Made by a program: the position numbers and the translations under genes
Source: Porticoccaceae bacterium
GTDB taxonomy: Bacteria > Pseudomonadota > Gammaproteobacteria > Pseudomonadales > Porticoccaceae
Direction: 5' to 3'
Assembly: GCA_023255165.1 (NCBI GenBank)
Contig: JALRJD010000328.1
Location: forward strand, 1 to 32,400
Length of the DNA: 32,400 bases
The notes under the pieces: model-generated
What the model saw: the letters and a program-made list of their open reading frames with translations, nothing else
What the model was told of the DNA's origin: nothing
Databases searched by the model: none
Shown here: positions 978-2,464 of the stretch, one piece after another
Layout: every line of letters starts with the position of its first letter
How positions within the stretch are numbered: position 1 is the stretch's first letter

Positions 978-1088
978 GGGTTTGAGCTTTAAACTGCAAA
1001 ATTGCAAATTTTAAAGTTCCAGCCCAAAGAGAAAATAACCCACCTGGAGAAATCCGGGGCAACAGCACCTGACGAGATACCGACAAAG

Positions 1089-1127
1089 CGGCAATCTTGC
1101 GGCAATTTTTGCGGCAAGATTATGCCG
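1089..1127. other. Imperfect inverted repeat between flaG and flagellin 1
   Basis: CGGCAATCTTGC ... GCAAGATTATGCCG (2-nt bulge), with a smaller nested GCAA/TTGC stem. Confidence 0.45.
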
Positions 1128-1222
1128 CCGTTCCCTCTTCTTCAAAATAGTCATCCTCCCAAAAACTCTTAACCCATTGATTCAAATGAGTTTATTTTTT
1201 ATTTCTCCGACTTTTTAAAAAG

Positions 1223-1239
1223 TTGGCATCAGTATTGCA
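1223..1239 (+). promoter_or_regulatory. Putative sigma-54 (RpoN) promoter for flagellin 1
   Basis: TTGGCA-TCAGTA-TTGCA against consensus YTGGCA-N6-TTGCW with correct spacing. Confidence 0.8.
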
Positions 1240-1254
1240 ATTCCTCTATCGCGA

Positions 1255-1342
1255 GCCGTCAAAAAGCCAACAGGCTATGAGACGGCAATTGGTAAATTTT
1301 TAGGTTCATCACGCATTCAGTGTTTGAGCTAAATGAACCTAA
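1255..1342 (+). promoter_or_regulatory. Structured 5' leader of flagellin 1 (two hairpins)
   Basis: GCCGTC(1255-1260)/GACGGC(1281-1286) enclosing AGCC/GGCT, then TTAGGTTCAT(1300-1309)/ATGAACCTAA(1333-1342). Confidence 0.5.
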
Positions 1343-1403
1343 CGATCCCGGTTGCACAACGCGTGTTTTAACGGCAGCCGATCAAAAACTAGAGGAATTT
1401 GAA

Positions 1404-2273
1404 ATGACTGTTATTAATACCAATGTGGGTGCAACCATTACCCAAAACGCTCTGGCAAAAAACGAAAGGTTGATGGGCCAGGCGATGGAGCGACTGTCAA
1501 CCGGCAAGCGCATCAACTCCGCGTCGGACGATGCCGCAGGTCTGGCAATCTCGGCACGTATGACCGCGCAGATTAAAGGTCTGGATCAGGCCGCGCGTAA
1601 TGCCAACGACGCCATTGCAATGATTCAAACGGCGGATGGCGCGTCTATCGAAGTAGCCAATATGCTGCAGAGAATGCGCGAGCTGGCCATTCAATCGATT
1701 ACCGAAACCAATACTGCCACCGACCGCGCGAATCTGAGTGTCGAGTTTGTCGCACTCCAGGCGGAAATTTCGCGTATTTCCACCACCACTCAGTGGAACG
1801 GTGAGAATATTCTGGACGGCTCCGCGGGTACCAATTCAGATGGCGTGGTGATCTATCAGGTTGGCGCCAATGCCAGTCAAACAATTTCCATAGACCTTGG
1901 CGACTGGGCAACCACTGGCGCTGGCGTATACAGTAATGGTGGCGCAGCCAATGATATTTCTTCGGCGGGAATCAGTCTTAGCACTTCTACTGCCGCGGCC
2001 GCAGCTCTGGCAAAAATTGACACTGCCATCAATGGTATTAACACCCAGCGCGCAACCTATGGTGCGGTGATGAACCGTCTTGAATATGTGGTGGATAACC
2101 TGTCCAATGTCTCGCAAAACGCAGCCGCCTCGCGCAGCCGTGTTGAAGATGCCAACTATGCTGCCGAGACCACCGAGCTGGCTCGTACGCAGATTATTCA
2201 GCAAGCCGGCACGGCTATGCTGGCCCAGGCAAACCAGTCTGCGCAATCTGTATTGCAGCTGTTAAAAGGTTAA
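1404..2273 (+). CDS. fliC: Flagellin 1 (sigma-54 type promoter)
   Basis: MTVINTNVGATITQNALAKNERLMGQAMERLSTGKRINSASDDAAGLAISARM... and C-terminal ELARTQIIQQAGTAMLAQANQSAQSVLQLLKG. ATG at 1404 preceded by AGAGGA. The ORF track start at 1320 is probably too early. Confidence 0.97.
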   Translation: MTVINTNVGATITQNALAKNERLMGQAMERLSTGKRINSASDDAAGLAISARMTAQIKGLDQAARNANDAIAMIQTADGASIEVANMLQRMRELAIQSITETNTATDRANLSVEFVALQAEISRISTTTQWNGENILDGSAGTNSDGVVIYQVGANASQTISIDLGDWATTGAGVYSNGGAANDISSAGISLSTSTAAAAALAKIDTAINGINTQRATYGAVMNRLEYVVDNLSNVSQNAAASRSRVEDANYAAETTELARTQIIQQAGTAMLAQANQSAQSVLQLLKG

Positions 2274-2437: not shown

Positions 2438-2464
2438 TTAAGTAATCCGATGTCATGTCGATGT
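2438..2464 (+). promoter_or_regulatory. Putative sigma-28 promoter for flagellin 2
   Basis: TTAAGTAA-N11-GTCGATGT. The -10 box is identical to that of the candidate upstream of flgP. Confidence 0.55.

Follow-up and report, generated by a model that had tools for sequence, protein, structure and literature searches.

The stretch of DNA analysed here (the window, 32,400 nucleotides) comes from a genome of the SAR92 genus, Porticoccaceae, and carries near its beginning two adjacent flagellin genes that appear, from their promoter sequences, to be under different sigma factors (Table 1). The closest homologues of flagellin 1 are found in SAR92-clade genomes, namely the isolate MOLA455 and two metagenome-assembled genomes, and its gene is located after flaG both in the window genome and in these relatives. 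The sigma-28-like promoter that precedes flagellin 2, whose gene begins at 2545, is also present in MOLA455. The first flagellins of other SAR92 genomes (G011, G021, G022, G026, G058, G066 and others) are proteins of about 390-700 amino acids with central insertions, compared with 289 amino acids in this case.

Table 1. Features of the flagellin locus in the window.
Feature	Position	Strand	Description
GCGGCAA repeat cluster	1088-1130	+	Ends in TGCCGCC; upstream of the flagellin 1 sigma-54 promoter
Sigma-54 promoter TTGGCATCAGTATTGCA	1223-1239	+	Exact consensus match; kept in 4/4 leaders
Hairpin 1	1255-1286	+	GYCGUC/GRCGGC, enclosing GCC-AACA-GGC; some 5 nt downstream of the predicted 5' end
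Linker AAUUGGUAAAUUU	1287-1299	+	A/U-rich, single-stranded, invariant (13/13 identical across four leaders)
Hairpin 2	1300-1342	+	10-bp stem UUAGGYUYAU/AUGARCCUAA and a variable inner stem whose partner is UUGAGCU
Possible short upstream ORF MNLTIPVAQRVF (MSLTIPVAQRFY in MOLA455)	1333-1371	+	12 codons; ATG within hairpin 2
Stem 3	1344-1383	+	GAUC..GGUUGC/GCAGCC.GAUC; 10 pairs, CC bulge
Flagellin 1 Shine-Dalgarno AGAGGA	1391-1396	+	Holds the sole GGA of the leader
Flagellin 1 CDS	1404-2273	+	289 aa, MTVINTNVG...; 93% protein identity to MOLA455
Flagellin 2 sigma-28-like promoter TTAAGTAA-N11-GTCGATGT	2438-2464	+	Also in MOLA455

The spacing of the sigma-54 element (GG-N10-GC) places the predicted transcription start at about 1250, where the initial annotation had also put it, and the distance from this position to the ATG at 1404 is 154 nt, in line with the leader of about 150 nt claimed there. 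Neither a sigma-70-like promoter nor a terminator-like sequence was found between 1000 and 1500, and the lack of a terminator speaks against the leader as a transcription attenuator. Upstream of the promoter, the cluster of GCGGCAA repeats is probably an enhancer that would be bound by the sigma-54 activator. The repeat occurs 23 times in the window against 11.3 expected (0 of 100 shuffles reached this count), the same cluster is present on the minus strand upstream of the flgB sigma-54 promoter (17682-17641), and the flagellin-side copy is recognisable in MOLA455 and in the relative G064. The sequence ACCGACA precedes both clusters. It was also observed that AATTCCTCTA (1239-1248), which adjoins the predicted start, is the perfect complement of the flagellin Shine-Dalgarno region TAGAGGAATT (1390-1399); the 10 bp are retained in G001 through a two-sided change and lost in MOLA455, and the 1239-1248 segment is probably not part of the transcript.

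Two consecutive hairpins had been described in the leader, and both inverted repeats are present at the coordinates given for them (Table 1). Hairpin 1 begins at about +6 of the predicted start, with an outer stem formed by GCCGTC (1255-1260) and GACGGC (1281-1286) and an inner GCC/GGC stem (1266-1268/1273-1275) that closes an AACA loop. In hairpin 2, TTAGGTTCAT (1300-1309) pairs with ATGAACCTAA (1333-1342) over 10 bp without a mismatch, and a perfect inverted repeat of 10 bp was found in only 38 of 5000 shuffles of the leader (<1%). Both hairpins proved more stable than shuffled sequences: hairpin 1 with a z-score of -5.9 in the window (0/1000 shuffles, p<0.001; range in three sequences -4.9 to -5.9) and hairpin 2 with a z-score of -3.7 (3/1000 shuffles, p=0.003) and a minimum free energy of -13 to -21 kcal/mol. 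Both fold significantly in the window, MOLA455 and G064. For the whole leader the z-score against dinucleotide shuffles was -2.7 (0/300 shuffles), and -2.53 for the segment 1250-1420, a signal that comes from hairpins 1 and 2.

A further stem, overlooked in the initial annotation, is formed downstream by GATC..GGTTGC (1344-1355) and GCAGCCGATC (1374-1383). Considered by itself, this stem 3 scores less well (z -1.4 to -2.3); it vanishes in folds with longer context and, since its 10 pairs are all invariant in the four leaders compared below, shows no covariation. Within hairpin 2, UUGAGCU and AUGARCC (1320-1329 and 1333-1339) are near-repeats, either of which can pair with GGYUYAU, so that an alternative fold is possible; in the window, the 10-bp form is preferred by 4 kcal/mol or more. 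Some folds of the isolated leader showed the AAAUUUUU linker covering the Shine-Dalgarno; masking of this kind was discarded as a feature because it became inconsistent once coding context was included.

The leader type of the window is common to four genomes, the window genome, MOLA455 (G057), G001 and G064. Leaving out the near-identical pair G057-G001, the leaders are 81-88% identical, similar to the flagellin coding sequences of the same lineages (81-86%), whereas in the same comparison identity falls to 44-53% in the intergenic DNA that precedes the promoter. Each of the 29 stem pairs in the structure derived for the window is retained in the four leaders. In hairpin 1 two pairs vary and remain paired through G-U, and hairpin 2 shows a compensatory pair as well as a single G-U change, its inner stem retaining the pairing with the fixed UUGAGCU in spite of a diverged 5' arm. 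Altogether, of five variable stem positions two constitute the single compensatory U-A/C-G pair and three are G-U-preserving transitions. Invariant columns amount to 53 of 58 among paired positions and 71 of 98 among unpaired ones, with transversions common in unpaired columns and absent from the stems. When stem substitutions were simulated at random, all pairs were kept with a probability of 0.0005-0.04, depending on the root and the transition bias. Selection on RNA is favoured by the G-U-preserving changes, because these would break a DNA palindrome. The covariation score was matched by 131 of 500 shuffles, and formal covariation statistics are weak since there are only four leaders, two of them near-identical. 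Conservation at the RNA level thus covers both the leader and its pairing in these four SAR92 genomes, so that the lack of conservation and covariation which would have told against the initial annotation is not observed, and the comparative support for pairing in the RNA is good but not conclusive.

A direct DNA search of the relatives matched across the leader in G001 alone. A covariance model built from this leader type (R1) recovered the four leaders with E values of about 1e-46 to 1e-50, and further matches in 50 genomes of the genus and 392 of the order were at chance level. The whole window gave no match to Rfam 15 at the gathering threshold, and a permissive Rfam search yielded nothing credible, its two minus-strand snoRNA matches being at chance level (E 0.93-7.1). 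The exact pattern of the leader core was absent from the viral contigs searched.

A second leader family was found in six other SAR92 genomes (G011, G022, G066, G021, G058 and G026; leaders L086-L091). It occupies the same place, in a locus syntenic with the window (flaG, sigma-54 promoter, structured leader and flagellin), with a different sequence whose core comprises GGCAACYGYGNGUAACNCRCRG and CAUAACUUGAAU. Covariation is clear: eight pairs are changed on both sides, none of 500 shuffles reached the covariation score, and 90% of the alignment cells are paired compared with at most 52% when the alignment is slid. The support for this family is arguably better than that for the leader of the window. 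Its covariance model (R2) seemed to match a window-type leader (G064, E 0.003). However, the Shine-Dalgarno and start codon accounted for much of this score, as they alone gave 21.6 bits under R2 at 2494-2553, and after trimming of the Shine-Dalgarno region (model R3) the window-type leaders L003 and L019 scored at chance level (7.9-11.1 bits, E 1.7-9.9 in 35 kb). Homology between the two leader types is therefore not claimed. Outside the genus, R2 and R3 gave a single chance-level match. Elsewhere in the genus, the leaders of six further sigma-54 flagellins (G069, G016, G060, G023, G061 and G019) fold no better than shuffles, which argues against a leader function general to the genus; structured leaders at the SAR92 sigma-54 flagellin are common, not universal. 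The two leader types might have diverged from a single, rapidly evolving SAR92 regulatory RNA at the sigma-54 flagellin, with a 5' hairpin, a long UUUUUAGR-based stem with inner hairpins, a third hairpin and the Shine-Dalgarno in common; a factor bound to it would then link the translation of early flagellin to the assembly of the flagellum independently of FliW and FlbT. We regard this reading as clearly unlikely.

Most descriptions of structured flagellin leaders whose regulators are known come from Campylobacter and Caulobacter. The C. jejuni flaA leader, a target of CsrA-FliW (PMC4894983), resembles the leader of the window in that the 5' UTR of a flagellin forms two hairpins in succession, which compensatory changes in relatives support. 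It differs in its length of 45 nt and mainly sigma-28-dependent transcription, as opposed to 154 nt and sigma-54, and in the GGA motifs carried by both of its hairpin loops (PMC4894983), whereas each of the four SAR92 leaders has one GGA, at -10 within the Shine-Dalgarno, and hairpins devoid of it. Two-site repression by CsrA, in which two sites including a hairpin loop are required, is unsupported for this reason, even though csrA is present in six of seven SAR92 genomes searched, the window genome included. The fljK-type leaders of Caulobacter, also sigma-54-dependent and subject to post-transcriptional control in cis, are bound by FlbT (PMC3930126, PMC4347634), and the likeness to them is one of promoter class and possible mode of control. 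Neither FliW nor FlbT was found in the seven SAR92 genomes by searches that recovered the positive controls (B. subtilis and T. maritima for FliW, Caulobacter for FlbT), and control of the window's leader by these proteins is consequently unsupported. A third comparison is offered by the stabilising 5' stem-loops of the E. coli ompA/papA class, with which the leader would share, if the predicted start is correct, a stable hairpin near the 5' terminus of an abundantly expressed mRNA. Secondary structure at the 5' end stabilises bacterial mRNA, as RppH and RNase E require this end to be single-stranded (PMC3997798). The leader of the window has two more structured elements and conserved linkers, and stabilisation is suggested here by analogy.

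Several explanations of these observations have been considered. The main rival to a stabilising leader is translational control in trans, in which a protein or a small RNA acting on the linker or the loops would delay the translation of flagellin up to a checkpoint, for instance the completion of the hook, in the manner of FlbT or CsrA-FliW. The invariant unpaired stretches, the linker above all, the presence of csrA and the regulation of the Caulobacter sigma-54 flagellin leaders (PMC3930126) are consistent with such control, but the lack of FliW and FlbT and the single GGA at the Shine-Dalgarno, against two GGA loops in C. jejuni flaA (PMC4894983), make it rather unlikely. A role at the DNA level is improbable. 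The inverted repeats, conserved just 3' of the sigma-54 promoter, would in that case be activator sites downstream of the start, and the 3' arm of hairpin 1 (GRCGGCAA) does resemble the upstream GCGGCAA repeat. FlrC reportedly can bind downstream of the Vibrio cholerae flaA start. The GCGGCAA clusters upstream of the flagellin 1 and flgB promoters are nevertheless better enhancer candidates and make a downstream enhancer unnecessary, hence disfavoured, though conceivable at hairpin 1; moreover, the G-U-preserving changes keep the RNA stem and break the DNA palindrome.

The claim that no protein coding explains the leader holds, with the reservation of a possible 12-codon frame (MNLTIPVAQR..) whose ATG at 1333 is located in hairpin 2. 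Translation of this peptide could open hairpin 2 and stem 3 and be coupled to that of flagellin, and it would account for the near invariance of about 31 nt from the ATG, or 10 codons, as well as for the stop of the MNLTIPVAQRVF and MSLTIPVAQRFY frames at the same place in the window and MOLA455. Yet in G064 the frame extends further, as far as the flagellin start, which leaves its end unconserved; in addition, a clear Shine-Dalgarno is lacking, the ATG lies within the hairpin and the substitutions are too few for a codon test; a leader peptide is considered quite improbable. An N-terminal extension of flagellin from the GTG at 1320 was rejected because of an in-frame stop in G064. It is highly improbable that the leader is ordinary non-coding DNA conserved among close relatives, with hairpins arisen by chance, as could be proposed from the four genomes, two of them near-identical, and the lack of matches beyond the subclade: the adjacent upstream non-coding DNA has diverged far more over the same time, and the folding scores exceed those of shuffles in three distinct sequences.

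The leader is probably a real RNA element of control or stability. The initial annotation had proposed a post-transcriptional control or RNA stability element, and this class of explanation is best backed by the conservation in four genomes, the retention of all pairs and the compensatory pair; the tie to hook completion suggested there gained no support. Within this class, we give an even chance to a structured 5' UTR, specific to the lineage, by which the abundant flagellin message would be stabilised or its translation tuned. The 154-nt 5' UTR would consist, in order, of the 5' hairpin, the A/U linker, the long hairpin 2, a probable stem 3 and an accessible Shine-Dalgarno, and would act in cis on the flagellin mRNA. 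Most likely, the 5' end would be shielded from 5'-end-dependent decay through RppH and RNase E, while the ribosome-binding site would be held in a defined open context, and the abundant early flagellin message could thereby persist long enough. A pure end-protection role is weakened by the approximately 5 nt predicted to be unpaired ahead of hairpin 1, and a function beyond that of a mere barrier is suggested by how strongly the loops and the linker are conserved; these invariant stretches may additionally bind a factor.

The leader of the window constitutes a new RNA family, confined to one lineage and of an already known kind. It represents an unlisted family of flagellin-leader RNA in a marine Gammaproteobacterium that is devoid of the partner proteins of both known systems, FliW and FlbT, and a second, better-covarying leader family is found at the same locus in sister species. 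SAR92, with the isolate MOLA455 carrying the leader type of the window, becomes a testable case of post-transcriptional control of an abundant flagellin message.
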